Assembly (NCBI GenBank): GCA_016184115.1
Contig: JACPDH010000091.1
Coordinates: 1-45,589, forward strand
Direction of reading: 5' to 3'
Length of the DNA stretch: 45,589 bases
Source of the DNA: Acidobacteriota bacterium
Lineage (GTDB): Bacteria; Acidobacteriota; Thermoanaerobaculia; Gp7-AA8
Shown: positions 23,367-45,589 of the stretch, in pieces
Layout: each line of letters starts with the position of its first letter
Position numbering within the stretch: position 1 is the stretch's first letter
The notes under the pieces: generated by a model
The model's input: the letters and a program-made list of their open reading frames with translations, nothing else
Databases searched by the model: none
What the model was told of the DNA's origin: nothing
Position numbers and translations under genes: made by a program

Positions 23367-24749
23367 TCAGTCCCGGCCTCGGGCCTCGATCCCATACCGT
23401 TTCATCTTCCGTGCCAGAGTCTTTCGCTCGATCCCGAGGATGAACGCGGCCTGCGTCTGATTGCCTCGGGCCGCTTCGAGCACCGCGAGGATGTGGCGCT
23501 TCTCCGCGTCGTCGAGCGATCCGAGCTCCGCGCCAGCCTCCGGCTCGCTCGCGTCCGCAACCGCGGGCGCGATTTCCAGGGAGGGCGAGCTCGGGCCCGA
23601 CATCTCGCGAAGTACGCGGCCGGCCGCCACTGCGTCCGTAAGTGCGCCGGTATCGATCGCGATGCGCCTCACGGCCTGTTCGAGCTCACGAATGTTGCCT
23701 TGCCACGGGTGCAGCGTGAGCCGCTCGATGAGCGCTCGTGACGGGCCCTCGATTTCTGCGCGGCCGAGCTCGCCCGCCAGCTTCCGGCGGAAGTGATCGA
23801 CGAGGAGCGGGATGTCACTCGCGCGCTCGCGCAGCGCCGGCACGCCGATCTCGTAGCCGGCAAGGCGGAAGTAGAGATCCTCGCGGAACCGCCCCGCCGC
23901 GACCATTGCGCGCAGGTCGCGATGGGTCGCCGCGATCACGCGCACCGCGACCCGCAGCTCCTTTTCGCTTCCGAGTGGCGTTACGGTTCCTTCCTGAAGG
24001 AATCGCAGCAGTCGCACCTGGAACGCCGGTGACACGTCGCCGATCTCATCGAGGAAGAGCGTCCCGCCGTCGGCGCGGACGAGCGCGCCGCGCCGGTCCT
24101 GCCTCGCATCGGTGAAGGCTCCTCGGATGTGGCCGAATAGCTCGCTCTCGAGGAGCGTGTCGGGAACCGCGCCGCAATTGAGCGCGACGAACGGTCCGTC
24201 AGGCCGGGAGCCTAACGAGTGAAGCGCACGCGCCACGAGCTCCTTCCCTGTGCCACTCTCGCCGCGCACGAGCACCGGGACGGCGAGCGGCGCGATCTTC
24301 GAGATCGCGCGGTAGAGGGCGATCATCGACGGGTGCGCGCCCACCATCATCGACGGCGGCGCCGGCTCGATCTCGAGAATCTCGTGCCTCACCGGCGCGA
24401 CCGCGGCGGCGATCCTCGCCATCATCTCCACGAGGTCGAATGGCTTCGCGATGTAGTCGAACGCTTCGCCACGCTCCGCGAGCGCAGCAGTTTCGAGGCT
24501 TCCGCGAGCAGTCATCAGAATCGTCGCAGGTCGTGGGTCGAGCTCGCGGATCTCGTCGAGCAGAACGAGCCCCGTGTCTCCCGGCATGTAGATGTCGCTG
24601 ACGACGACATCGACTCTCTCCGTGGCGAGAAGCGCCCGCGCACTTGCGACGCTGGCGGCACGGAACACCGCATGTCCCGACTTTTCGGCCGCGATCGCGA
24701 CACTCTCGCGAATGCCGGCGTCGTCGTCGACGACGAGTACTCGTGCCAT
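23367..24749 (-). CDS. NtrC-family sigma54-dependent response regulator
   Basis: This 460-residue activator has a receiver domain (Asp8-10 cluster, phospho-acceptor Asp52 in VVSDIYMPG), a central AAA+ domain and a C-terminal Fis-type helix-turn-helix (NQTQAAFILGIERKTLARKMKRYGI). The AAA+ domain has Walker A (GESGTGKE) and Walker B (GGTLFLDEIGD). The sigma54-contact loop reads GAFTDA rather than the usual GAFTGA, a substitution that also occurs in natural members of the family as far as I recall. The ATG at 24749 has GGAGA 8 bp upstream. It follows the CHASE2 kinase by 21 bp, forming a two-component pair, and precedes the FecR-domain gene. Likely targets include the candidate sigma54 promoter at 22520. 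Confidence 0.9.
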   Translation of the reverse strand: MARVLVVDDDAGIRESVAIAAEKSGHAVFRAASVASARALLATERVDVVVSDIYMPGDTGLVLLDEIRELDPRPATILMTARGSLETAALAERGEAFDYIAKPFDLVEMMARIAAAVAPVRHEILEIEPAPPSMMVGAHPSMIALYRAISKIAPLAVPVLVRGESGTGKELVARALHSLGSRPDGPFVALNCGAVPDTLLESELFGHIRGAFTDARQDRRGALVRADGGTLFLDEIGDVSPAFQVRLLRFLQEGTVTPLGSEKELRVAVRVIAATHRDLRAMVAAGRFREDLYFRLAGYEIGVPALRERASDIPLLVDHFRRKLAGELGRAEIEGPSRALIERLTLHPWQGNIRELEQAVRRIAIDTGALTDAVAAGRVLREMSGPSSPSLEIAPAVADASEPEAGAELGSLDDAEKRHILAVLEAARGNQTQAAFILGIERKTLARKMKRYGIEARGRD

Positions 24750-24770
24750 CAGCAATTCTCCATCAATGGA

Positions 24771-26588
24771 TCACGTCGTCAGCGGTAGCACGATCCTGAA
24801 GATGCTCCCGCTTCGCACCCCTTCCCTCACATCGACTTCGCCTCGGTGCCACTTCACAACCTCGGCGACGAGCGCGAGCCCCAGGCCGAGCCCTTCGGTC
24901 TCGCCGGCCGAGCTCCCTCGCTTGAAACGCTGAAAGATCGTGGCGCGTTCCTCTGCGGAGATTCCCGGCCCTTCGTCGCCGACCTCGACGACGGCGCCGA
25001 CGTGCGCGGTCATGACCCGCAAGCTCACCTTCGATCCCACGGGCGAGTACTTCACTGCATTCCCGACGAGGTTGTCGATCGCGCGCTCGAGCAGCGCGGC
25101 ATCTCCGCGCACGCGGACTCCCGGCTCGATCTCCGCGACGAGTGACGGCGCGACGCCGGCACGAAGCAGTTCGGCGCGGTCGCGACCGAGCGATGAAAGA
25201 TCGACGGTCGTTGCGGTCGCTTCGAGCTCGCGCAGCGCGAGCCGCTCGATCTCGAGGAGACTCCCGACCATCGCCTGCAGCTTGTCGGTCTCCTTCTCGA
25301 TGAGCGCCACGACGCGCCTCGTCTCGTCTTCGCCGAGCTTGTATCCCGACAGCAGCTGCGTGAGGCCGCGCACCGATGCAAGTGGCGTTTTCAGTTCGTG
25401 TGCGAGCACGCGGCGCGACTCGACGTCGCTCCGCCGCCGGCGATCGAGTAGCGCACCGAGCTCGTCGAGCCGCTCGACGAGTCCCGCATCGTTCGCGAGA
25501 TTCGCGTCGCCCAGGCCGCTCGCGATCCGCGCGACTGCCTCGCTGCCGCTGCGCTGAAGCCGCCACGCCGCGAGCGTCTCCATGACGCCGACCGCGGCGC
25601 CCGTTGCGAGCGCGAGCGCGACAATCGGCAGGAGGAGCTTCGCCGTGAAAAGCAGCGCGATTCCCGCCACCAACGGCGTCGCGAGCAGCGCGATGCCGAC
25701 CGCGACGCGGCGCGACATTCGCCTTGGCCGCCAGGCGAACGTGAGCGCAACGAACGCGGCAGCGAGAAGGCCGCTGACGACGGGAGGAACCTCGTGAACG
25801 ACATCGCCCGAAACGAGAGCCTCGGTCGCAGCCGCATGAACGACGACTCCCGCATCGGGACGCCCCTCCACGGTGGTTGGCGTGACCGCTCGATCACCGA
25901 GCGCGAGTGCGGTAAGGCCGATGAAGACGACGCGACCTCGAAGCGCCTCGCTCGTCCTTCCTTCGAGAAGTCCTGCGGCGCTCACGACGGGAACATCGAC
26001 CGTGCGCGCGCGAAAGCCCGGTTCGAGGACGCTCCCAGGCGTCACGACGACGGCATCTCTCAGCGCGGACGCCATCGCGATCGAGAGCGCAGGAAGGCTC
26101 ATCTCCCCCGCCTGCTTCGTCATCGATAGCCGCCGCATTACGCCATCGCGGTCGAGCTCGATCATGCCGTGCGCAAGACGCGCACTCCTTGAAAGCGCCG
26201 GAGGAGGCACTACCCACTTCCCCTCGCCGTCGAGTCCCGAGACGAGCGTCGCCCCGGCGCCCTCGAGGCTCAATGCAAGCTCATCGTCTCCCGGGCGCGG
26301 TTCGGCCAGGAGGATGTCGACTGCGACTGTGCGTGCTCCTGACGCCGCGACGCGATCGACGAGCGCGGCGACGCGCTCGCGAGGCCAGGGCCACGAGCCG
26401 GAGACGCGCAGCGATTCCTCGTCGATCGCGACGACCGCGGTTGCCACCACCGGTCGTGGCGAGCGAAGCCGCAGCAGCGCGTCGCGTGCCGGAAGCTCGA
26501 ACGAGTCGAGAAACCCTGCAGCCGAAACGCTCGCCACCACCGCACCCGCGCAAAACGAGACGGTCACGCGCCAGAGCCGGCTTTCCAC
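24771..26588 (-). CDS. CHASE2-domain sensor histidine kinase
   Basis: This 605-residue membrane kinase has an N-terminal helix and a CHASE2 extracytoplasmic sensor (about 30-270; AIDEESLRVSGSWPWPRERVA and GRVVFIGLTALALGDRAVTP are typical). Three closely spaced membrane helices (about 275-350) come next. The HisKA domain has phospho-acceptor His397 (VLAHELKTPL), and the HATPase domain has NLVGNAVKYSP, GDEGPGIS and GLGLGLALV. The start codon is GTG at 26588. CHASE2 ligands are unknown. The next gene is its probable partner, an NtrC-type regulator. The co-occurrence of CHASE2 and FecR domains in one operon is a recurrent theme in bacterial signalling. Confidence 0.9.
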   Translation of the reverse strand: MESRLWRVTVSFCAGAVVASVSAAGFLDSFELPARDALLRLRSPRPVVATAVVAIDEESLRVSGSWPWPRERVAALVDRVAASGARTVAVDILLAEPRPGDDELALSLEGAGATLVSGLDGEGKWVVPPPALSRSARLAHGMIELDRDGVMRRLSMTKQAGEMSLPALSIAMASALRDAVVVTPGSVLEPGFRARTVDVPVVSAAGLLEGRTSEALRGRVVFIGLTALALGDRAVTPTTVEGRPDAGVVVHAAATEALVSGDVVHEVPPVVSGLLAAAFVALTFAWRPRRMSRRVAVGIALLATPLVAGIALLFTAKLLLPIVALALATGAAVGVMETLAAWRLQRSGSEAVARIASGLGDANLANDAGLVERLDELGALLDRRRRSDVESRRVLAHELKTPLASVRGLTQLLSGYKLGEDETRRVVALIEKETDKLQAMVGSLLEIERLALRELEATATTVDLSSLGRDRAELLRAGVAPSLVAEIEPGVRVRGDAALLERAIDNLVGNAVKYSPVGSKVSLRVMTAHVGAVVEVGDEGPGISAEERATIFQRFKRGSSAGETEGLGLGLALVAEVVKWHRGEVDVREGVRSGSIFRIVLPLTT

Positions 26589-35450: not shown

Positions 35451-37451
35451 ATGACGCGACGACCGAAAGAGAACATCCGCCTCCTGCTCACCGGCGGCGG
35501 TACCGGCGGACACGTTTACCCGATCCTCTCGATTCATTCGATCCTTGCAGACGAGATCGGCGTGAGCGAGGCGCTCTACGTCGGATCGAAAGGGCGCGCC
35601 GAGGAGCAGATCGTGCCGCGGTACGGGCTGCCGCTCCGCTTCGTCCAGACCGCGCCGGTTGCAGGCAGCGCCCCCTGGAAGCTCATCCCTGCCGCGTGGC
35701 GCAACTTCGTCGGCACGATCCAGGCCGCCGTCATGCTGCTCAAGTTCCGTCCCAATCTCGTCGTCGCATCAGGTGGCTATGTGAGCGCGCCGGTCTGCTT
35801 CGCGACCTTCCTCTTGAAACCGTTCCTTCGCGCTCCACTCGTCATCAACGAGCAGAACGTCATGCCCGGGTTGATGAACAAAGTCGCGTCGCTCTTCGCC
35901 GACGTGATGATGGTCAGCTTTCCCGAGAGCCCCTACTTCCTCTGGAACAACCGCTGCGTCTTCACCGGCTACCCGGTGCGCGACGACATCCTGCGCGAGC
36001 GCGAACGGCGCGCGATGCGCATGAAGCTCGGGCTCGATCCCGATCGCACGATGATCCTCGTCCACGGTGGCTCGCTTGGTTCGCGTTCAATCAACCGCTC
36101 GGTCACGGCACTCGTGCCCCTTCTCGCGTCGCTCGGCCATGACTTGCAGATCATCCACTCAACGGGCCTCGCTCGCGGCGACTACGACGCCTGGAGCGAC
36201 ACGCTTGCGCATCTGAAGAAGGCGTGCCCGGAAGGCACCGAGCTCGAAGAATCCGAGCGCGTGTTGCAGGCGAGAATCGGGCGAGGTCGCGTCATCTACC
36301 GTCTGCAATCGTACGTTCACGAGATGGCCGATTGCCTTGCGGCCGCGGACGTCGTCATCTGCCGAGGCGGCGCCGGCGCGATCACCGAGCTCTGCGCCGC
36401 CGGACGTGCCGCGGTCGTGATCCCAAAGCGAGGCCTCCCGGGCGATCATCAGGAGCTCAACGCGCTCCATCTGGGCGAAGGACATGGCTGTGAGGTCGTC
36501 TTCGAGCGGCGCGGCGAGAACGGAGTCGACTACGTCGTCGCCGAGGAGCTTGCATCGATCGTCCGCTCGCTCGTGACATCGCCCGAGAGGCGCGCCGAGC
36601 TCGAGACGAATGCGCGTGCTCATTTCCACTCACACTTCCGCGACAAGATCGCCGCGACGACGCGTGACGTCCTCGCGCGAAGGAACCCCGAGTTTACGTC
36701 GAGCATCGTCGAGCCGGCCGGCAGCCGCATCCTTCGACAAGTCGACGTCCTCGTGCAGTTCCTGCGCAGGCAACCTGCCGGGAGCACCTACCGCCGCCTC
36801 TATGGGATCAAGATGGAGGAGAGCCTCGCCTCCTCCGACTGGACGAAGATCAACACCGGAATCAAACTCGCAGGCGCGCTCGGCCGCTTCGACAGGCTCG
36901 ACGATCTTCGCAGGTGGCTGCGCGAAGGAAACGGCTTCATGCGCCGCAACTCTCTTCGCGCCATCGACCACCTCGGTGCCCCGGTGCCCGATCTTGGCGC
37001 GCTCCTCGGCGCGGCTCTCGACGATAGTTATTTCGAAGCGCGCGCCGCCGCGCTCGAGATTGCCGGGCGCCACCACGAAGTGCTGCGAGGCGACGCTGCT
37101 TTCATCGCGCGGCTGCGTGCCACGTCGACGCCACGATTCCAGCACTTCGACGTCCGCTATCAACAGCTTCGCGTGCTGCCGCTCTTCGTTCCGCTCGAGG
37201 AGTACTTCGCGTTTGCCGACCGCTACCGGTTCGCCGAGAACACGCGGCTGCGGCAGGCGATCCTCGACGGGCTGCGTCGCGCACTCGACGCCGGCATCAT
37301 CGGCGCAAACGAACGCGAGACGACGCGCCGCTTCATCGACGAAATGCCAGTGACGACGAGCGACTTCACGCCGCAATTCACGATCCGCGAGAGCTTCATC
37401 CAGCTCTACAAGCAGCTTTCGAATGACGACCACAGGGAGGGCCCGAAGTGA
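35451..37451 (+). CDS. murG: MurG-type glycosyltransferase with HEAT-like C-terminal extension
   Basis: This 666-residue protein has a full MurG glycosyltransferase in residues 1-~400: LTGGGTGGHVYP, ASGGYVSAPVCF, NEQNVMPGLMNK, VHGGSLGSRSIN and CRGGAGAITELCAAGRAAVVIP. MurG adds GlcNAc to lipid I to give lipid II at the inner membrane. Two positions differ from typical MurG: HEQN is NEQN, and the QQ of the UDP-GlcNAc loop is QE (GDHQELNA). A ~250-residue extension (about 410-660) looks like HEAT-type helical repeats (RRNSLRAIDHLGAPVPDLGALLGAAL, YFEARAAALEIAG). Ordinary MurG has about 360 residues and no such tail. It overlaps mraY by four bases, and no other cell-wall gene is nearby. Confidence 0.85.
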   Translation: MTRRPKENIRLLLTGGGTGGHVYPILSIHSILADEIGVSEALYVGSKGRAEEQIVPRYGLPLRFVQTAPVAGSAPWKLIPAAWRNFVGTIQAAVMLLKFRPNLVVASGGYVSAPVCFATFLLKPFLRAPLVINEQNVMPGLMNKVASLFADVMMVSFPESPYFLWNNRCVFTGYPVRDDILRERERRAMRMKLGLDPDRTMILVHGGSLGSRSINRSVTALVPLLASLGHDLQIIHSTGLARGDYDAWSDTLAHLKKACPEGTELEESERVLQARIGRGRVIYRLQSYVHEMADCLAAADVVICRGGAGAITELCAAGRAAVVIPKRGLPGDHQELNALHLGEGHGCEVVFERRGENGVDYVVAEELASIVRSLVTSPERRAELETNARAHFHSHFRDKIAATTRDVLARRNPEFTSSIVEPAGSRILRQVDVLVQFLRRQPAGSTYRRLYGIKMEESLASSDWTKINTGIKLAGALGRFDRLDDLRRWLREGNGFMRRNSLRAIDHLGAPVPDLGALLGAALDDSYFEARAAALEIAGRHHEVLRGDAAFIARLRATSTPRFQHFDVRYQQLRVLPLFVPLEEYFAFADRYRFAENTRLRQAILDGLRRALDAGIIGANERETTRRFIDEMPVTTSDFTPQFTIRESFIQLYKQLSNDDHREGPK

Positions 37452-38551
37452 TCGGGCTCCTCATCGACATTCTCCGCGAGCACGGAATCCATCCCGGGTT
37501 TCTGCGCATCTTCGACTACATCACCTTCCGGATGCTGATGGCGGCAGTGACCGCGCTCGTGCTCGAGGTCGCGTTCGGCCACACCTTCATCGTTTTTCTT
37601 TACAGGGCGCGCTTCCGCGACACCGGCGGCGACTACCTTTCACTCAAGACGAGCGACAAGCGCGGCACACCCACCGGAGGCGGGCTCCTCATCATGATCG
37701 TCGTCGGCGTGTCGCTTCTCATCTGGGGAAGGCTGACGAATCCATACCTCCTCGCCGCGGCATCGTCGTTCTTCTACTTCGGCGTCGTCGGGCTCTTCGA
37801 CGATTGGCAGAAGGTGCGCCTGAAATCCTCGCTCTACGGACTCAGCCAGATCGCGAAGACACTGCTTCAACTCGCCTACATCGTCCCGTTCGCCGCGTGG
37901 TTCGTCACGATGAGTCCGCTGCCCGCGTCGCATCGGCACACCTTCTTTCTCCCGTTCGTGAAGGACTTCGCTCTCGACCTCGGGCCGTGGGTGTTCGGTG
38001 CATTCGTCGTCTTCACGTTCTTTTCGATCGTGAACGCGGTGAACATCACCGACGGAATGGACGGACTCGTCACGGGCCCCGCGGTGCTGACTGCAACGCT
38101 CTACGGCATTTTCGGCTACATCCTCAGCAATGCGGTTTTATCGAAGTACCTCCTATTCACGTTCCTCCCAGGTGCGGGCGAACTGACGATCTTCGCGGGC
38201 GCGCTCGCCGGCGGGCTCTTCGGATTTCTCTGGTTCAACGCCTATCCGGCGGAGCTGTTCATGGGCGACACCGGGTCGATGTCGATTGGCGCTGCGCTCT
38301 CCTCGCTCGCGTTCCTCACGCGCCAGGAATTGCTCTTCCCGATCGTCGGCGGTGTGTTTGTCGCATCGATCTTCACGTCGCTCGTGCAGGAGAAGATCGG
38401 CATGCGCCTGGGGCGGCGCGTGCTCGTGCGTGCGCCGTTGCACCACGCGCACGCGTACAAGGGCATCGCCGAGCCGAAGGTCGTCGTGCGCTACTGGATC
38501 GTCTCGATCCTTCTGATGCTCATCGCGGCGATCTCGATCAAGCTGCGGTAG
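37448..38551 (+). CDS. mraY: Phospho-N-acetylmuramoyl-pentapeptide transferase MraY
   Basis: This 367-residue polytopic membrane enzyme (about ten helices) transfers phospho-MurNAc-pentapeptide to undecaprenyl phosphate. MraY motifs are present: KRGTPTGGGLL, the Asp pair in GLFDDWQK, NAVNITDGMDGL, and WFNAYPAELFMGDTGSMSIG. The C-terminal PLHHHxE motif reads PLHHAHAYKG, so the three consecutive histidines are interrupted by Ala. The ATG at 37448 is coupled to the murG stop (ATGA). A murG-mraY pair outside a division/cell-wall cluster is unusual. It could be the only copy or a specialised second copy; the window cannot tell. Confidence 0.9.
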   Translation: MIGLLIDILREHGIHPGFLRIFDYITFRMLMAAVTALVLEVAFGHTFIVFLYRARFRDTGGDYLSLKTSDKRGTPTGGGLLIMIVVGVSLLIWGRLTNPYLLAAASSFFYFGVVGLFDDWQKVRLKSSLYGLSQIAKTLLQLAYIVPFAAWFVTMSPLPASHRHTFFLPFVKDFALDLGPWVFGAFVVFTFFSIVNAVNITDGMDGLVTGPAVLTATLYGIFGYILSNAVLSKYLLFTFLPGAGELTIFAGALAGGLFGFLWFNAYPAELFMGDTGSMSIGAALSSLAFLTRQELLFPIVGGVFVASIFTSLVQEKIGMRLGRRVLVRAPLHHAHAYKGIAEPKVVVRYWIVSILLMLIAAISIKLR

Positions 38552-38720: not shown

Positions 38721-38736
38721 CGGCACGTTCCTTGCC
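38721..38736 (+). promoter_or_regulatory. Candidate sigma54 promoter for the respiratory operon
   Basis: CGGCACGTTCCTTGCC fits TGGCACG-N4-TTGCW except at its first and last base. The GG (38722-38723) and GC (38734-38735) are separated by exactly 10 bp. Transcription would start near 38747, about 50 bp before the first start codon. Confidence 0.5.
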
Positions 38737-38797
38737 TCTCTCATGGTCGGACCATACCGGCACACGGTGAGGTCCGAAACGGAAGCGGGAGGTGCAC

Positions 38798-39043
38798 ATG
38801 TTTGGAATCGACGTTTTCGAGCCACAGACGATGTGGCTGAACATCACGAATATCGGACTCGGTATCGTCACGTTCGTCTGCATCGCGGCCGTCGCCTGGG
38901 GCGCCGCAGTCGAGATCCTCGAGCGCATCGCGGCGAAGTCGCGCGCTGCGGTCGAGCGCGACGATCACGCGTTCGCCGTGCCCGGCCTCGGCCTCACGAT
39001 GGCCGACGGCGGCGAAAAGCACGACGAGCCCGAGACCAAGTAA
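38798..39043 (+). CDS. Small single-helix membrane protein
   Basis: This 81-residue protein begins at the ATG at 38798 with GGGAGGT upstream. It has one membrane helix (about residues 14-36, IGLGIVTFVCIAAVAWGAAV) and a charged C-terminal part that is probably cytoplasmic or disordered (EKHDEPETK). I recognise no family. It is the first gene of the respiratory operon, 25 bp before the Cys-rich GcvH-like gene, so it may be a small accessory or anchoring subunit of the complex. The clear ribosome site and conserved-looking position support a real gene. Confidence 0.7.
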   Translation: MFGIDVFEPQTMWLNITNIGLGIVTFVCIAAVAWGAAVEILERIAAKSRAAVERDDHAFAVPGLGLTMADGGEKHDEPETK

Positions 39044-39068
39044 GCAGGCGAGCGGCGAGGAGTCGGCG

Positions 39069-40031
39069 ATGCGATGCCCGTTTCTCAGGGAAGAGCTCGT
39101 GAAGTACTGCCAGGCGTCGGCGTATCGCAAGATGATCGTCGATGCCGCTCGCGACGCGGGGCACGAACGCTGTTCGTCTTCCTCCTGGCATTCGTGCCCC
39201 GCCGCCGCCCGTCATGCCGTGACTCCCGACGAGTCCGATAGCTGCCCGTGGTTGCACGATGCCAGGGTCGAATACTGCGGCGGAGCCGCCGTCCCCCGCT
39301 TCATCCCTGCGAGCGACGCGCTTCTTTCGCACTGCAACTCCGACGCCCACAGATTCTGTGAGGTCTACCTCGCGCATGCCGACCCCACCGGCGAACGGCT
39401 CGTCGCCTCCGTCGACCGCGAGCTGCGGCCGGCTCCGGCCGCTGGAACGCCGATCGTCGACGGGCTGCCGGTGCCCGCGGGACTCGCCTACTCGCCTAAC
39501 CACATGTGGCTCGATGTCGGCGACGACGGCTGTCGCCACGTCGGCATCGATGCGTTTCTCGCCCGCGTAATCGGCGATGTCGACGAGATCAGCTTCGTCG
39601 TCCCAAGGGGTGACGGGCGGCCCGTCGCCATCCTCACCGTTCACGGTGTCGATCTGCAGCTCGTTTCTCCCGCGCCACTCCGTCGTGCCGTGGCGAACGT
39701 CTATCTGCGCACGAGCCCCGCGAAGCTGACGTCGGATCCGTACGGCGCCGGCTGGCTCTTCGCGAGCGTCGAGCCGAGCGGCGCACAGGCCGATCCGCCG
39801 GCCTCTGGTCTCCGGCACGGAGACGACGCGGCGCGCTGGATGCTCACCGAGTCGGCGAGGCTCGCGCTACACGTTCACGACACGCTCGCGCGCCGCGGAA
39901 GCGAGGGAGCACGCTTCATGGCCGACGGTGGGATCCCGTGCGCGAAACTCGCGGCCCAGCTCGAGCGCGGCGAGCTACTCGACCTCTTCAACCAGTTCTT
40001 CTCGCTTCACGTCATAGGACGGAGCTCGTGA
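39069..40031 (+). CDS. Cys-rich protein with lipoate-free GcvH-like domain
   Basis: This 320-residue protein has three parts. The N-terminal ~100 residues contain a duplicated four-Cys unit (C3-x10-C14 ... C35-x7-C43 and C59-x10-C70 ... C89-x7-C97), with CPFL...VKYC and CPWL...VEYC matching. The middle (about 138-240) resembles glycine cleavage H protein: LAYSPNHMWLDVGDDGCRHVG and DPYGAGWLFASVEP. The lysine that carries lipoate in GcvH is replaced (VDLQLVSP where GcvH has K-A-A-S-x-x-Y-SP). The C-terminal helical segment (WMLTESARLALH, ADGGIPCAKLAA) is shared with the last protein of the window. It may ligate metal or scaffold the neighbouring complex. It starts at 39069 after GAGGAG. Confidence 0.75.
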   Translation: MRCPFLREELVKYCQASAYRKMIVDAARDAGHERCSSSSWHSCPAAARHAVTPDESDSCPWLHDARVEYCGGAAVPRFIPASDALLSHCNSDAHRFCEVYLAHADPTGERLVASVDRELRPAPAAGTPIVDGLPVPAGLAYSPNHMWLDVGDDGCRHVGIDAFLARVIGDVDEISFVVPRGDGRPVAILTVHGVDLQLVSPAPLRRAVANVYLRTSPAKLTSDPYGAGWLFASVEPSGAQADPPASGLRHGDDAARWMLTESARLALHVHDTLARRGSEGARFMADGGIPCAKLAAQLERGELLDLFNQFFSLHVIGRSS

Positions 40032-40618
40032 TGAATCCAAGGGGACCCCTGACGTTCGCACTCGGGCTGGCGTCGGCGCTCGCGCTCGGCTGGGTCGCAT
40101 ACCCGCGCCTGCAGTACCGCAGCGTCGAGCAACCGATTCAGTTCAGCCACAAGATCCACACCGGCGAGTCGGTGGGCATGACCTGCGCCGAGTGCCATCC
40201 GTTAGGCGACGACGGCCGGTTCGCCGGGCTCCCGTCGATCGCCACGTGCGAGCCGTGCCACACCGAGACGCAGGGGACGACGAAAAACGAGAAGCACTTC
40301 GTCGAGCAGTACGTGACGAAGGGACGCGAGGTGCCGTGGCTCGTCTATGCGCGCCAGCCCGAGAACGTCTACTTCGCCCACGCGCCGCACATCGGGCTCG
40401 CGCATCTCCCCTGCGAGCGGTGCCACGGACCCCACGGCGGCTCCGACCAACTTCGTCCATACCAGGAAAACCGGCTCAGCTCGTACAGCCGCGACATCTG
40501 GGGACCCTCCGCCACTCGCCTTGCGCGGGCGGAGTGGGAGGGAATGAAGATGACCGACTGCTCGGCGTGCCACGAAGCGCACGGCGTACGCGAAAGCTGT
40601 TTGACCTGCCACAAGTGA
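40031..40618 (+). CDS. Membrane-anchored pentaheme cytochrome c (QrcA/ActA-like)
   Basis: This 195-residue protein has an uncleaved-looking signal anchor (PLTFALGLASALALGWVAYP) and five CxxCH heme-binding motifs: CAECH (52), CEPCH (73), CERCH (128), CSACH (177) and CLTCH (190). Additional histidines (QFSHKIHTG, FAHAPHIG) can serve as distal ligands. Pentaheme ActA of alternative complex III and hexaheme QrcA of the Qrc complex are the closest functional analogues known to me. It should exchange electrons with a periplasmic partner. The ATG at 40031 overlaps the previous stop by one base. The Mo-family subunit follows after 14 bp. Confidence 0.85.
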   Translation: MNPRGPLTFALGLASALALGWVAYPRLQYRSVEQPIQFSHKIHTGESVGMTCAECHPLGDDGRFAGLPSIATCEPCHTETQGTTKNEKHFVEQYVTKGREVPWLVYARQPENVYFAHAPHIGLAHLPCERCHGPHGGSDQLRPYQENRLSSYSRDIWGPSATRLARAEWEGMKMTDCSACHEAHGVRESCLTCHK

Positions 40619-40632
40619 GACGGGAGTTAGCG

Positions 40633-42741
40633 ATGAGATTCGAGGTCACACGCCGTGACGTGATGCGGTTCGCCGGAGGCGCGGCGATCGGAGCGGCTCT
40701 CTCTCCGATGCCGTGGACTCTGACCGACGATCTCGCGATCTGGACGCAGAATTGGCGCTGGATCCCGAGGCCGTCCAAAGGAGAGCGGTCGACGGCGACT
40801 ACGGCTTGCGCTCTCTGCGCGGCCGCATGCCCGCTCGAAGCGAATTGCGTCGGTAAGTCGCCGATCGCCCTGCGTGCCGCAGGCGGCGCGCAGCCACTCT
40901 GTTCTCTTGGCCTAACCGGCCATCACCTTCCCTGGCATCCGGCGCGGATCACGCGCCCGCAGCGCATCGAGCGCGGAGCGGCGCGACCTGCGAGCGTCAG
41001 CATCGAAGCCGTCGTGCGCGAGACTGCGCGGGCCATGGCCGCTGCGCGCTCGGGATCGGGATCGGTCGTGGTTCTCGACAGCCGCCCGGACCGCAGCGGC
41101 TCCTGGGCATGGCAACGTCTGCTCGCCTCGATCGAAGGAGCCGTCGTCGTCGCCACTCCGGGAACCGAAGGATCGAGCCTCGATGCGCTCGATGCTCTCT
41201 CGTCCGACGCTACGCGACTCACGACGCTCGATCTCGCCGGCGCCCGCACGATTCTCAGCTTCGGCGCGCCGGTCGCCGAAGGCTGGGGACGACTCAGCGA
41301 GTGCTGTCCCGGAGACGTCACCCTCGTGCAAGTCGAGCCGATGCGCTCGCGCAGTGCCGAGCTCTCCGATCACTGGCTCCCCGCGAGGCCGGGCACAGAG
41401 GGTGTTCTCGCACTTGGCATCGCGAACACCCTGATCTCCGCGAGTCTCGTCCCCTCCAGCGTCACCGAGTCGATCGCCGACTTCGCAGCCTACACAGACA
41501 TCGTCGCGCGCTTTCCTCTCGCCCGCGTCGCCGCGATCACCGGACTCGCGGCCGATGACATCGCGTTGACCGCGCGCGAGCTCGCCGCGAACGGACCGAC
41601 AGTCGTCGTCGCGGGCGAGCAACCGGGCGGAGGGCCGCTTCGCCGCTCCGATCGTGTCGCGATTCTCGGGCTGAATGCGCTGTTAGGCTCCGCCGGACGC
41701 ATCGTCGACCGGGCTGAGCTCCTCTCGCCTCGCGCCGGCGAGCCGCTCGCGCCCGTCGCAAGGCTCGAATCGCTGCCCGGCCGCTCCGTGGCCCTCCTCG
41801 TCATCGACGCATCCGCCGGCGACGTCGCGTTCCCGTGGCACGTGGTCGATCGCAAACTGGCGAGCAGTGCCCTCGTCGTCGCGCTGTCTCCCTATCTCGC
41901 GGGAACCGCGCGACACGCCGACTTCGTCGTCCCCACCGCACCCTTTCTCGAGGCGATCCATGAGATCCCCTCATCGCGCACCGAGGCTGCTCCGGCACTC
42001 TCGATCTCCGCACCGCTTCTCCCGGCGCGCGAAGGAGCGATCGACCCGGTCGCCTTCGTGCGGATGCTCGCCAGCGCAGGGCAGATCGATCTCGGCGGTG
42101 ACTGGAGCTCGACCGAGTCGCTCGCACGCGAGCGTGTCGCGCGGATCCACGCCGCAGCAATCGGCAGCGTGGCGCAGCCGTCGGAAAGTGCGAGCCTGCC
42201 GGTCGCCTCTCTTGCCTCCGCCGACGAGCTCTGGGATGCGCTCGCGAAGGGAGGTCGATGGACTGGAGATCGCGCAGCTGCGAATCCGGAACGACGCGTC
42301 GAACTCGCCGCGGGGCTCGGCGTCGACCTCACACGTGAGGTAGGCGCCGCGCAGGCGAGCGATCGCACGCTGAAGCTCGTGCCACGCGCCGCGCGCGAGA
42401 CCACGCTCACCGCCGTCGTCTCTCCGGTCCTCTCGAAGCTCTATCGCGAGTCGCAACTCCGCCGCTCGCCCGGCAGCGCGACGCTGAGCCCGCGCACCGC
42501 CGCGGCGTTAGGCCTGCGCAATGTGCGGGCTGCCCGCATCCTCACGGCCGGCGGTTCCGCGCACGTCTCCCTCTCGCTCGACGAAGGCGTGATGGCAGGC
42601 GTCGTCGAGCTCACCGTCGCCCCCGACCTCATCGCGCTCGGCGATGCGGCTCGCGCCGATCACCGTATGGCAATCGACCTTCTAACCCCCGCTGCCGATG
42701 GCTCCTGGAGCTCGATCGACGCAGAGCTCGTGGAGGGATGA
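40633..42741 (+). CDS. Molybdopterin-oxidoreductase-family subunit (QrcB-like)
   Basis: This 702-residue protein begins with a twin-arginine signal (VTRRDVMRFAGGAAIGAALS) at the ATG at 40633. Four cysteines for one [4Fe-4S] cluster follow (TACALCAAACPLEANC... and QPLCSLG). The rest has the MopB fold (SVVVLDSRPDRSG, TILSFGAPVAEGWG, DHWLPARPGTEGVLALGIA, a C-terminal beta domain near 620-700). I see no Cys, Sec or Ser in the usual metal-ligand context. As in QrcB, it may be a structural homologue without a catalytic Mo-bisPGD centre; that is an inference. It directly precedes the ferredoxin subunit, with no gap between the stop and the next start. Confidence 0.8.
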   Translation: MRFEVTRRDVMRFAGGAAIGAALSPMPWTLTDDLAIWTQNWRWIPRPSKGERSTATTACALCAAACPLEANCVGKSPIALRAAGGAQPLCSLGLTGHHLPWHPARITRPQRIERGAARPASVSIEAVVRETARAMAAARSGSGSVVVLDSRPDRSGSWAWQRLLASIEGAVVVATPGTEGSSLDALDALSSDATRLTTLDLAGARTILSFGAPVAEGWGRLSECCPGDVTLVQVEPMRSRSAELSDHWLPARPGTEGVLALGIANTLISASLVPSSVTESIADFAAYTDIVARFPLARVAAITGLAADDIALTARELAANGPTVVVAGEQPGGGPLRRSDRVAILGLNALLGSAGRIVDRAELLSPRAGEPLAPVARLESLPGRSVALLVIDASAGDVAFPWHVVDRKLASSALVVALSPYLAGTARHADFVVPTAPFLEAIHEIPSSRTEAAPALSISAPLLPAREGAIDPVAFVRMLASAGQIDLGGDWSSTESLARERVARIHAAAIGSVAQPSESASLPVASLASADELWDALAKGGRWTGDRAAANPERRVELAAGLGVDLTREVGAAQASDRTLKLVPRAARETTLTAVVSPVLSKLYRESQLRRSPGSATLSPRTAAALGLRNVRAARILTAGGSAHVSLSLDEGVMAGVVELTVAPDLIALGDAARADHRMAIDLLTPAADGSWSSIDAELVEG

Positions 42742-43515
42742 ATGGAATCCGCTGAAACGACTCTGGCTCGCTACGGCATGGTCATCGACCTCGACCGCTG
42801 CAACGGCTGCGGCGCATGTGCAACCGCCTGCGCGGTCGAGAACAACGTTCCTCCCGCGAACACATCTGCGACCGAGCGGACCGGCCTCACCTGGCTCCGC
42901 GTTCAGCGCGTCTCGAACGGCCGGCAGTTTCCGCAGAATCGAGCGGTCTATATCCCAATCTCCTGCCAGCAGTGCGGCGAGCACACCCCATGCGTGAGCG
43001 TCTGCCCGCAGAATGCGGTCGACGTCAATCCCGAAACGGGCGTCGTGAGCCAGGTTCCGGCGCGATGCCTAGGTTGTCGCTACTGCATGGCCGCGTGCCC
43101 GTTTCACGCTCGCTACTTCAACTGGTTCGATCCGAAGTGGCCCGATGGGATGGAGGCGACGCTCAATCCCGACGTTTCGATCCGCATGCGCGGCGTCGTC
43201 GAGAAGTGCAACTTCTGCCATGGCCGCTGGCAGGCGGCAAAGGCGAAGGCGGCGGCAAATGGAGCGCGCGACATCGACCCGGCCGACTACGTTCCGGCAT
43301 GCGTCGATGCGTGCCCCGAGAAGGCGATCACCTTCGGCAACCTCGACGACCCCCGAAGCGATGCCGCACGCGCGTCGAAGAGCGCGAACGCCTTCCGCTT
43401 CCTCGAGAAACTCGGCACCGATCCGAAGGTCTACTACCGTTCCGATCGCGCCTGGGTCAGGCGCCTCGCCGACGCCGACGTGACGGCGAGAGAAAGCGAG
43501 GCGAGTCGTGGATAA
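42742..43515 (+). CDS. Four-cluster ferredoxin subunit (QrcC/PsrB-like)
   Basis: This 257-residue iron-sulfur protein of the DmsB/PsrB/NrfC type carries four cysteine groups for four [4Fe-4S] clusters: CNGCGACATAC, CQQCGEHTPCVSVC, CLGCRYCMAAC and CNFC with CVDAC. No signal peptide is present, as usual for subunits exported together with a Tat partner. It should carry electrons between the MopB subunit or hemes and the membrane NrfD subunit. Its start follows the previous stop directly, and its end overlaps the next gene by 8 bp. Confidence 0.92.
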   Translation: MESAETTLARYGMVIDLDRCNGCGACATACAVENNVPPANTSATERTGLTWLRVQRVSNGRQFPQNRAVYIPISCQQCGEHTPCVSVCPQNAVDVNPETGVVSQVPARCLGCRYCMAACPFHARYFNWFDPKWPDGMEATLNPDVSIRMRGVVEKCNFCHGRWQAAKAKAAANGARDIDPADYVPACVDACPEKAITFGNLDDPRSDAARASKSANAFRFLEKLGTDPKVYYRSDRAWVRRLADADVTARESEASRG

Positions 43516-44740
43516 ACCCCTCATCCTCCGCGGCGCGAGGCGCTGCTCGACGAAACGGTTCCTGACGTGGCTCGCTCCCTGGGCTGCGATGGCCGTTCTC
43601 GGCGTTCTGGCGATCGGTCTCTGCCTCGTCAAGGGGCTGAACCAGACGAATATGGACAACCGATTCGCGTTCGGCCTCTGGATCTTCCTCGATCTCGCGG
43701 TCATCGCGCTCGGCGCCGGCGCGTTCTTCACCGGTTTCCTTCTCTACATCCTCCGACGCGACGAGCTCCGCGCGGTCATCAACAGCGCAGTCGTGATCGG
43801 CTTCATCTGCTACTCCGGCGCAGTGCTCGTCCTCGCCGTCGACGTCGGGCAGCCTCTGCGCGCCTGGTTTACCTTCTGGCACCCCAACGTCCACTCGATG
43901 CTGACCGAGGTGACGTTCTGCATCACCGTCTATCTGACGGTACTCGCGATCGAGTACCTCCCGATCGTCCTGCGCAACCGCCAGCTCCGCAAAGTGCCTT
44001 CGTTTCTCGTGTTCGAAGGAGAGTTACACAAGGTGATGCCGGTCCTCGCGGCCGTCGGCACGTTCCTCTCGTTCTTCCACCAGGGATCGTTAGGCGGACT
44101 CTACGGCGTCCTGCAGGGGCGGCCGTTCGCCTTTCGCGACGGCTTTGCAATCTGGCCGACGACCTTCTTCCTCTTCATCCTCTCCGCGATTGCGACGGGG
44201 CCGGCGTTCGTCCTGCTGACGACGTCGATCGTCTCGAAAGTGTCGGGCACGCGACTCGTTCGCCATGTCGTCTATGAGCTTCTCGCGAAGGTCTCGGGAT
44301 GGCTCCTCATCGTCTACGTCGGTTTCAAGAGTGTCGATACGATCGTCTGGCTCAACCAAACCGCACCGCGGAGCGGCGTGAACCCGAGCCAGTTCTATGC
44401 GTGGCAGCCGTTCGGCAGCTGGGTTCTCGTCGTCGAGATCGTCATCCTCGGTCTCGTGCCTGCGCTGATCTTCATCTCCCCAACGCGGCGCCGCAGCCTT
44501 CCCTGGCTCGTCACCGCGTCAGTGCTCGCAAGCCTGGGCGTTGCGACCAACCGGCTCGTCATGACGATCCAGACGCTCGCGCTGCCAACGTTCAAGTTCG
44601 AACCGTTCATGACCTACTGGCCGAGCTGGCAGGAAGTCGCCACGTTTCTCTTCGTCATCGCGTACGGCGTCATTCTCTACTCGCTCTCGTTCCGCTACCT
44701 GAGACTCTTCCCGCAGGAGCGCGAGCTTCAGAAGTACTGA
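43508..44740 (+). CDS. NrfD-family quinone-linked membrane subunit (QrcD-like)
   Basis: This 410-residue NrfD/PsrC-type integral membrane protein has about ten helices and a GTG start at 43508 overlapping the ferredoxin gene. The N-terminus is cytoplasmic and basic. Family features include FGLWIFLDLAVIALGAGAFF, the HPNVHSMLTEVTF region and the conserved SFFHQGSLGGLYG segment. These proteins bind menaquinone and, in Qrc and ACIII, are thought to take part in charge or proton movement. It completes the set of cytochrome, MopB protein, ferredoxin and NrfD in the same order as qrcABCD. Confidence 0.9.
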   Translation: MDKPLILRGARRCSTKRFLTWLAPWAAMAVLGVLAIGLCLVKGLNQTNMDNRFAFGLWIFLDLAVIALGAGAFFTGFLLYILRRDELRAVINSAVVIGFICYSGAVLVLAVDVGQPLRAWFTFWHPNVHSMLTEVTFCITVYLTVLAIEYLPIVLRNRQLRKVPSFLVFEGELHKVMPVLAAVGTFLSFFHQGSLGGLYGVLQGRPFAFRDGFAIWPTTFFLFILSAIATGPAFVLLTTSIVSKVSGTRLVRHVVYELLAKVSGWLLIVYVGFKSVDTIVWLNQTAPRSGVNPSQFYAWQPFGSWVLVVEIVILGLVPALIFISPTRRRSLPWLVTASVLASLGVATNRLVMTIQTLALPTFKFEPFMTYWPSWQEVATFLFVIAYGVILYSLSFRYLRLFPQERELQKY

Positions 44741-44752
44741 GGAGGTTCAACC

Positions 44753-45589
44753 GTGCTGCCCGGAATCTACGAGTTCGCCTGGGACGAAGGCCACATCATC
44801 TTCCTCGGAATCTTCTATTCAGTTGTCATCGTCGTCCTGACCACGGTCGTCATCGCGCTGCTTCGCGCGATCCGTCACGCACGAACGCGCAACGCCGAGC
44901 TCGCGCTCTGGCACGCCGACTTCGAAGATCTGCCTGCGCGCGACCGGCGCTGCCGGTATGAACTGACCGGCGAGGTCGCCTCGCGTGCATGCGAGAACTG
45001 CTTCGACTGCAGGCATTGCGCAGATCATCCGCATTTCGTCGCGGCGGCTGCCTCAGCAGTTGCAGCGACGGCTCCGCAGAGCGACACCGTCGCCGGGTTC
45101 GCGCTTCCGTCCGATCGCCTCTACCACCGAGGGCACACGTGGGTTCGAGAGGAAGCGGACGGAACGCTGACGATCGGCCTCGACGACCTCGGGGCGCACC
45201 TCATGGGCGCCCCCGATGCAGCCGAGCTCCCTCGGATTGGCGCGAGGCTCGTTGCAAACGGTACCGCGTGGAAGGCGACGAAGCGAGACGTGACCGTGCG
45301 GGTGATGTCTCCGATCGAAGGAGAACTTCTCGCGATCGGCGGTGAGGGCGACGACTGGATCCTCAGGCTCCGTCCGGAAGGGGAACGCGCCGACACGCGT
45401 CACCTGCTGAGCGCGGCGGAAGCGCGCCCCTGGATGCTCCGCGAGGTCGAACGTCTTCAGCTCGCGCTCGCGACCGATCTCGTCGGCGCCGCGCTTGCAG
45501 ACGGCGGCGTGCCCGTCGACGATCTCGCCTCGGTGATACCGCCGGACAAGCTCGACGACGTCTGCGGGATGCTGTTCCTGGAGCCGTAA
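44753..45589 (+). CDS. Membrane-anchored four-Cys protein with lipoate-free GcvH-like domain
   Basis: This 278-residue protein starts at a GTG (44753) with GGAGG upstream and ends with TAA at the window edge. It has one N-terminal helix (IIFLGIFYSVVIVVLTTVVIA). A cysteine motif C-x5-G-x-V-x4-C-x5-C-x2-C (from CRYELTGEV to CRHC) follows, then a GcvH-like domain (about 120-215; YHRGHTWVREEADGTLTIG, SPIEGELLAI) and a C-terminal segment (WMLREVERLQLAL, ADGGVPVDDLAS) shared with the 39069 protein. The GcvH lipoyl-lysine position is Asp. I recall similar C-G-V-C-C-C plus GcvH-like proteins in other anaerobe or respiratory operons; their function is undescribed to my knowledge. It is probably a subunit or assembly factor of the upstream complex. 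Confidence 0.75.
   Translation: MLPGIYEFAWDEGHIIFLGIFYSVVIVVLTTVVIALLRAIRHARTRNAELALWHADFEDLPARDRRCRYELTGEVASRACENCFDCRHCADHPHFVAAAASAVAATAPQSDTVAGFALPSDRLYHRGHTWVREEADGTLTIGLDDLGAHLMGAPDAAELPRIGARLVANGTAWKATKRDVTVRVMSPIEGELLAIGGEGDDWILRLRPEGERADTRHLLSAAEARPWMLREVERLQLALATDLVGAALADGGVPVDDLASVIPPDKLDDVCGMLFLEP

Follow-up and report, generated by a model that had tools for sequence, protein, structure and literature searches.

The DNA analysed here, the window, is a stretch of 45,589 nucleotides from an Acidobacteriota bacterium (GCA_016184115.1, contig JACPDH010000091.1) and represents one complete contig (C119). Its last 6.8 kb form a tight operon of seven genes on the plus strand, in which the genes of a Qrc-type respiratory complex stand between two genes for GcvH-like proteins. 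The first gene encodes SmallTM (38792..39043), a protein of 83 amino acids supported by alignment, family comparison and a predicted topology common to 56/56 sequences. It is followed by GcvL1 (39069..40031), a soluble protein of 320 amino acids with two four-cysteine modules, a GcvH domain lacking the lipoyl lysine and a C-terminal helical segment with the motif DGG. Then come QrcA (40031..40618), a penta-CXXCH cytochrome c with an N-terminal membrane segment, QrcB (40633..42741), a MopB-like protein with a Tat-type signal, QrcC (42742..43515), a four-cluster ferredoxin, and QrcD (43508..44740), an NrfD-family membrane subunit. The last gene encodes GcvL2 (44753..45589), 278 amino acids long, with an N-terminal membrane helix, one four-cysteine module, a GcvH domain again lacking the lipoyl lysine and a C-terminal ADGG segment. 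The successive intergenic gaps are 25, -1, 14, 0, -8 and 12 bases. The contig ends with the stop codon of GcvL2, and its final 141 bases are identical to the initial 141 bases of contig C111. An identity of this kind typically marks a break in the assembly, so the neighbourhood of the operon carries on into C111. The first genes there encode an NtrC-type sigma-54 response regulator, in converging orientation, an archaemetzincin and a histidine kinase that has the heme-type motifs C-x2-CH and C-x4-CH. In the closest relative (G001) the operon and these three genes lie in the identical arrangement on a single contig. The unit is thus wider than the original prediction, made from the window's letters, had described.

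The best NCBIfam families for the four central genes were QrcA, QrcB, QrcC and QrcD, respectively. QrcA (NF041781, 212.7 bits, cut-off 180) and QrcD (NF041784, 584.7 bits, cut-off 570) scored above their equivalog cut-offs and QrcB (NF041783, 211.6 bits, cut-off 440) and QrcC (NF041782, 356.1 bits, cut-off 400) below them. The distant members tested showed the same pattern, with QrcD near its cut-off. Because QrcB and QrcC fall below the cut-offs, we filed the core as a Qrc-type sister clade and not as classical QrcABCD; judged by sequence, it is Qrc-like and its clade is separate from the classical one of Desulfobacterota. Five CXXCH motifs were counted in QrcA, in the window as in 63/63 homologues, and the 16 cysteines of QrcC make up four clusters. 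Together with the family matches these counts bear out the original prediction that a five-heme cytochrome, a MopB protein, a four-cluster ferredoxin and NrfD here follow the order of qrcABCD. The prediction had left the complex as Qrc- or alternative complex III-like, and the first half of this label stands on the A-B-C-D order, the single NrfD gene and the scores of QrcA and QrcD. Alternative complex III (ActABCDEF) has MopB-like, iron-sulfur (Fe-S), NrfD and multiheme cytochrome parts in common with the window, but its ActB is a fused MopB/Fe-S protein and it has two NrfD subunits (ActC, ActF), whereas QrcB and QrcC are separate here and there is one NrfD gene; this gene structure rules it out.

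In comparison to QrcABCD of Desulfobacterota, the core has the same gene order and the same two subunits above the equivalog cut-offs, and it keeps the tested QrcD residues, the Tat-type signal of QrcB and the quinone-site tyrosine of QrcC. It differs in the low scores of QrcB and QrcC and in three extra conserved genes, published descriptions of a four-gene operon being the source for the absence of GcvL from Desulfobacterota qrc loci. Another difference lies in QrcB, which is described as cofactor-less in Desulfovibrio and N. vulgaris, whereas this clade keeps four cluster-type cysteines (C59, C62, C66 and C90, spaced C-x2-C-x3-C-x23-C) in 58/59 sequences. Mutagenesis in N. vulgaris found D70, Y110, S138 and Y150 of QrcD to be essential, the functions concerned being the reduction of quinone and the uptake of protons; QrcD has no redox cofactor there, and its tested quinone site lies on the periplasmic side (PMC13059093). 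These four residues correspond to D62, Y102, S130 and Y142 of the window's QrcD, and D120 and R358 to D112 and R349, when residues are matched by a constant numbering offset and by motif, without aligning the N. vulgaris sequence itself. All six were identical in 80/80 sequences, and the QrcC tyrosine, matched in the same way to Y113 of N. vulgaris, which belongs to the same essential set, was kept in 76/78. With the tested residues so conserved, QrcCD should work as in Desulfovibrio, taking electrons from the periplasm and protons from the cytoplasm. By homology the core likely reduces menaquinone with electrons from cytochrome c, and the reverse direction is also possible. QrcC has no export signal of its own. 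From the Tat-type signal of QrcB, QrcABC would be expected in the periplasm, with the accessory proteins across the membrane from them.

The two flanking proteins had been described as paralogues with a GcvH-like domain and a shared C-terminal segment, and hhalign showed them to share these parts (probability 99%, E 4e-18). The domain spans residues 140-231 of GcvL1 (39486..39761), from a Pfam match and a structural match, and residues 123-194 of GcvL2 (45119..45334), from a Pfam match and Foldseek top matches that are GcvH (E 1.8e-8). Against Pfam GCV_H, GcvL1 scored 21.1 bits (cut-off 22.2) and GcvL2 24.9 bits, and 50/53 homologues of GcvL1 and 73/73 of GcvL2 matched this family. With the curated gcvH model TIGR00527 the scores were 25.2 and 26.1 bits, below the cut-off of 115.85 bits. 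AlphaFold2 models (mean predicted local distance difference test 84.7 for GcvL1 with 53 sequences, 90.4 for GcvL2 with 73) gave the predicted H-protein fold in both, and their best matches in the PDB were all GcvH; the GcvL1 model superposed on the E. coli H-protein with Z 13.5 and a root-mean-square deviation of 2.3 over 124 residues. This superposition covered essentially the GcvH part alone. GcvL shares the H-protein fold with GcvH and differs from it by the loss of the lipoyl lysine, the Cys modules, the C-terminal DGG segment (DGG in 53/53 GcvL1 and 71/73 GcvL2) and the membrane helix of GcvL2. It is not linked to gcv genes, and a regular GcvH with the E-S-V-K motif is encoded on contig C83. 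Open frames of about 376 amino acids with a GcvH-like match of 130-147 bits were found in G086, G098, G110, G121, G141 and other genomes of one family; their score lies between those of true GcvH and GcvL.

At the position of the lipoyl lysine, anchored on the S-P motif, the window proteins have Gly or Asp, as had been noted. Across the families this column held N, G, H, R, D and others in GcvL1, with K in 1/53, and G, E, D, N, R and others in GcvL2, with K in 5/73, and these counts agree with the earlier view that the fold no longer serves lipoate chemistry. It is very improbable that the proteins are lipoylated carriers with a displaced lysine. Two positions ahead of the canonical lysine, 60/73 GcvL2 sequences do have a basic residue, but it is Arg in 17/73 and missing from others, GcvL1 lacks a lysine at this place, there is no E-S-V-K motif and scores of 25-32 bits against GcvH models contrast with cut-offs near 116. 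The column counts thus disfavour lipoate at a shifted site.

The cysteines are the second conserved feature of these proteins. The duplicated C-x10-C/C-x7-C module that had been read in GcvL1 was found exactly, as C3-x10-C14-x20-C35-x7-C43 (39075..39197) and C59-x10-C70-x18-C89-x7-C97 (39243..39359). The motif of GcvL2, C67-x5-G-x-V-x4-C80-x5-C86-x2-C89 (C67-x12-C80-x5-C86-x2-C89, 44951..45019), and its membrane helix were also as stated. Eight cysteines are invariant in GcvL1 (n=53) and four in GcvL2 (n=73), which gives three four-cysteine sites. The modules had no significant match in Pfam or NCBIfam, and a PDB sequence search with the CPFL Cys module returned no match.

SmallTM, GcvL1 and GcvL2 carry no export signal. 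The membrane helix of GcvL2 (residues 12-44, 44786..44884) was placed by the model and by charge bias, with the N terminus out and the C terminus in: the mean number of K and R was 0.12 before the segment and 4.58 after it, in the same sense in 73/73 sequences. SmallTM has one helix of the same predicted orientation, with almost no positive charge before it and four to five after it (same sense in 56/56), and a conserved tail L-G-L-T-M-A-D-G-G-E-K; its ADGG, at 39002-39013 in the window, recurs in SmallTM tails. GcvL1 has no clear membrane segment. The charges flanking the helices place the main parts of GcvL2 and SmallTM in the cytoplasm, and all three proteins would, from these sequence features, be cytoplasm-facing.

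The conservation of the module was surveyed by scanning genome contigs with a QrcD alignment and keeping the best 80 matches as 80 loci. Since QrcD was the query, the flanking genes were not selected for, and since the best 80 were kept, the sample represents one QrcD clade. The loci came from Acidobacteriota (Thermoanaerobaculia, Bryobacterales and others), Ignavibacteria and other Bacteroidota, Kryptoniota, KSB1, Eisenbacteria and Myxococcota. Where the contig was long enough, GcvL2 followed QrcD in 76/76 loci, GcvL1 preceded QrcA in 56/58 and SmallTM was present in 50/52. The full seven-gene order appeared in 47 of the 50 fully covered loci, and an order that recurs so often in several phyla is not due to chance. 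A lack of conservation in related genomes had been named in advance as grounds for refuting the prediction; the seven-gene module, its three undescribed parts and the loss of lipoate chemistry all held up there. Among the exceptions, the Myxococcota locus L115 has GcvL2 only, without GcvL1 and SmallTM, and in locus L104, which lacks GcvL1 and SmallTM, the upstream region looks foreign. Over 50 loci, the pairwise distances of GcvL1 correlated with those of QrcD (Mantel r 0.75, 0/1000 permutations), as is expected for jointly inherited genes. A 2021 survey had found QrcD restricted to Deltaproteobacteria (PMC8076601); a QrcD survey of Acidobacteriota detected it in 4/396 genomes. In the metagenome-assembled genome CO124, qrc genes are reported to be transcribed under anoxia, and the flanking genes go unmentioned in those passages of the paper that the search returned (PMC10564751). 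Its locus (L083) has the whole module and the kinase, archaemetzincin and regulator cassette.

An alternative is that GcvL1 and GcvL2 are maturation factors, which would insert or protect the Fe-S clusters of QrcC or proofread QrcB-QrcC before Tat export and docking to QrcD. We consider this possible but rather unlikely. QrcB with its Tat-type signal and QrcC without one should both be finished in the cytoplasm, where GcvL resides, and a soluble GcvL1 with eight invariant cysteines would suit such a task. However, the anchoring of GcvL2 and SmallTM, the fixed flanking order and the single set of paralogues per complex suit a structural part equally or better, and no resemblance to known chaperone families was found.

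GcvL proteins also occur beside simpler operons. On contig C107 of the source genome (L007 3465-10148) a second set consists of a ferredoxin, NrfD, a heme-motif kinase, a sigma-54 regulator, an archaemetzincin and GcvL3, a paralogue with a membrane helix, a lipoate-free GcvH domain and a DGG segment; no MopB or cytochrome gene was seen alongside. Among the 30 best GcvL loci of Acidobacteriota, 12 had ferredoxin/NrfD genes within 1.5 kb and 9 had a kinase, regulator or archaemetzincin only. The neighbourhood survey that had been proposed thus finds GcvL to be a frequent companion of ferredoxin-NrfD operons, and its presence beside ferredoxin-NrfD pairs without Qrc-type MopB and cytochrome genes ties it to the ferredoxin-NrfD part. 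In several families a single CPFL-type Cys module is a small separate gene immediately 5' of ferredoxin-NrfD genes (L145 1396-1734, L147 1423-1719, L149 1441-1737, L150 1420-1722, L151 1438-1734, L152 1399-1776 and L050 7659-7907), and in G036 the order is Cys module, ferredoxin, NrfD, GcvL, GcvL. In three genomes one protein fuses a CPFL module, two C-x-W-M/C-R-Y-M modules, a lipoate-free GcvH domain and a DGG segment, each adjoining a sigma-54 regulator (L148 1477-2637, L153 1420-2643 and L154 508-1782). With both fusions and separate modules in existence, GcvL1 and GcvL2 appear to represent a split form of one modular family. Genes named by eye at L055 8542-10697 encode P-loop ATPases with ferredoxin-type Cys motifs and a small NifX/NafY-like protein, with a GcvL gene in their vicinity.

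This association with ferredoxin-NrfD pairs, and the three invariant four-cysteine modules on the cytoplasmic side, could be taken to mean that the modules are Fe-S relays between a cytoplasmic partner and a second quinone site on the cytoplasmic side, so that two redox inputs are coupled. We find this improbable, as QrcD is cofactor-free and the quinone site tested in it lies on the periplasmic side (PMC13059093), the operon has no flavin- or NAD-binding partner and the Cys modules match no Fe-S family in Pfam or by PDB sequence.

Upstream of SmallTM, at 38721..38736 on the plus strand, lies a sigma-54 (-24/-12) promoter-like site, CGGCACG-N4-TTGCC (CGGCACGTTCCTTGCC). An element scoring at least 11 was found in 20/56 regions upstream of SmallTM as compared to 0/56 on the reverse strand, 0.8% of dinucleotide shuffles and 1.2% of controls inside the operon; across loci it lies 20 to 108 bases before the SmallTM start. 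The NtrC-type regulator may act on this promoter. In the 44 loci that extend 6.5 kb or more past QrcD, kinase, archaemetzincin and regulator were all present in 22 and none of them was seen in 18. The archaemetzincin signature HExxHxxGxxHCx4CxM (M54) was intact in 35/35 neighbours tested, and the enzyme of the source genome matched PF07998 with 86.9 bits. The natural substrate of archaemetzincins is unknown (PMC3427221), and the open-access literature searched showed no link between them and respiratory operons. A further NtrC-type regulator and a probable kinase are encoded on the minus strand at 23367-26588 of the window.

The frequent cassette also matters for a plainer view of the cysteines, namely that zinc stabilises a scaffold in which the GcvH-like proteins hold complexes together as a larger assembly and neither sense nor catalyse. 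The invariant cysteines, the C-x2-C pair of GcvL2, the loss of the lipoyl lysine and a weak, non-significant Foldseek match to 8a1y_A are consistent with it, and lipoyl-like domains without cofactor are known from Na+-NQR. It leaves unexplained the regulatory cassette and the separate small genes with a single Cys module, and we give it little credence.

The explanation we favour, with a probability of roughly one half, is a Qrc-type complex with a cytoplasmic metal or Fe-S accessory module that docks on QrcD by its GcvH domains and tunes or assembles QrcCD. Periplasmic cytochrome c would supply electrons that QrcA and QrcC relay to menaquinone on the outer side of the membrane, and the protons for its reduction would be drawn from the cytoplasm via QrcD. 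The GcvH domains may dock the module on QrcD from the cytoplasmic side, which would position it where protons enter, and the four-cysteine sites may hold a metal, Fe-S or Zn. The module could then tune proton uptake by QrcCD, or its assembly, according to the cytoplasmic redox or metal state, and the operon would be switched on by the heme-motif kinase and the NtrC-type regulator at the sigma-54-type promoter. QrcD, being of NrfD type, lacks a cofactor and has its quinone site on the periplasmic side, which makes a direct electron path from GcvL through it to the outer quinone unlikely. The four-gene operon of N. vulgaris yields active QrcABCD (PMC13059093), so the role of GcvL and SmallTM should be accessory; the same result, by which the extra proteins are dispensable for the basic reaction, counts against the favoured explanation. 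So do several other points: the topology is based on charge alone, 9/30 of the best Acidobacteriota GcvL loci have neither an NrfD nor a regulator gene within 1.5 kb, co-inheritance in a single operon is no proof of physical association, and the extra proteins, candidate subunits with a putative cofactor, may act during assembly only. A bolder form, which we hold to be a long shot, is that the lipoate-free GcvH fold is a general cytoplasmic metal subunit that gates proton uptake of NrfD complexes by redox state, and that the linked archaemetzincin acts as its switch when it cuts the shared (M/L)ADGG tails of SmallTM, GcvL1 and GcvL2.

Elsewhere in the window, upstream of the operon at 35451-38551, a gene for a glycosyltransferase family 28 (MurG-like) protein with about 270 extra residues stands immediately before one of glycosyl transferase family 4 (MraY-like).

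The Qrc complex type itself is known, and what is new here is a Qrc sister clade together with an undescribed protein family; no paper linking GcvH-like proteins with Qrc or NrfD was found in the open-access literature searched, a scope outside which most subscription papers fall. Qrc is an energy-conserving complex, and its sister clade spans several phyla, nearly always with the extra proteins, in hosts known mostly through assembled soil, peat and water metagenomes. For the archaemetzincins, a peptidase family of unknown biological role, the link suggests candidate substrates. Should the extra proteins prove to be subunits, NrfD-type complexes have components that were overlooked so far; as regulators or assembly factors, they would offer a handle on the control of NrfD complexes.

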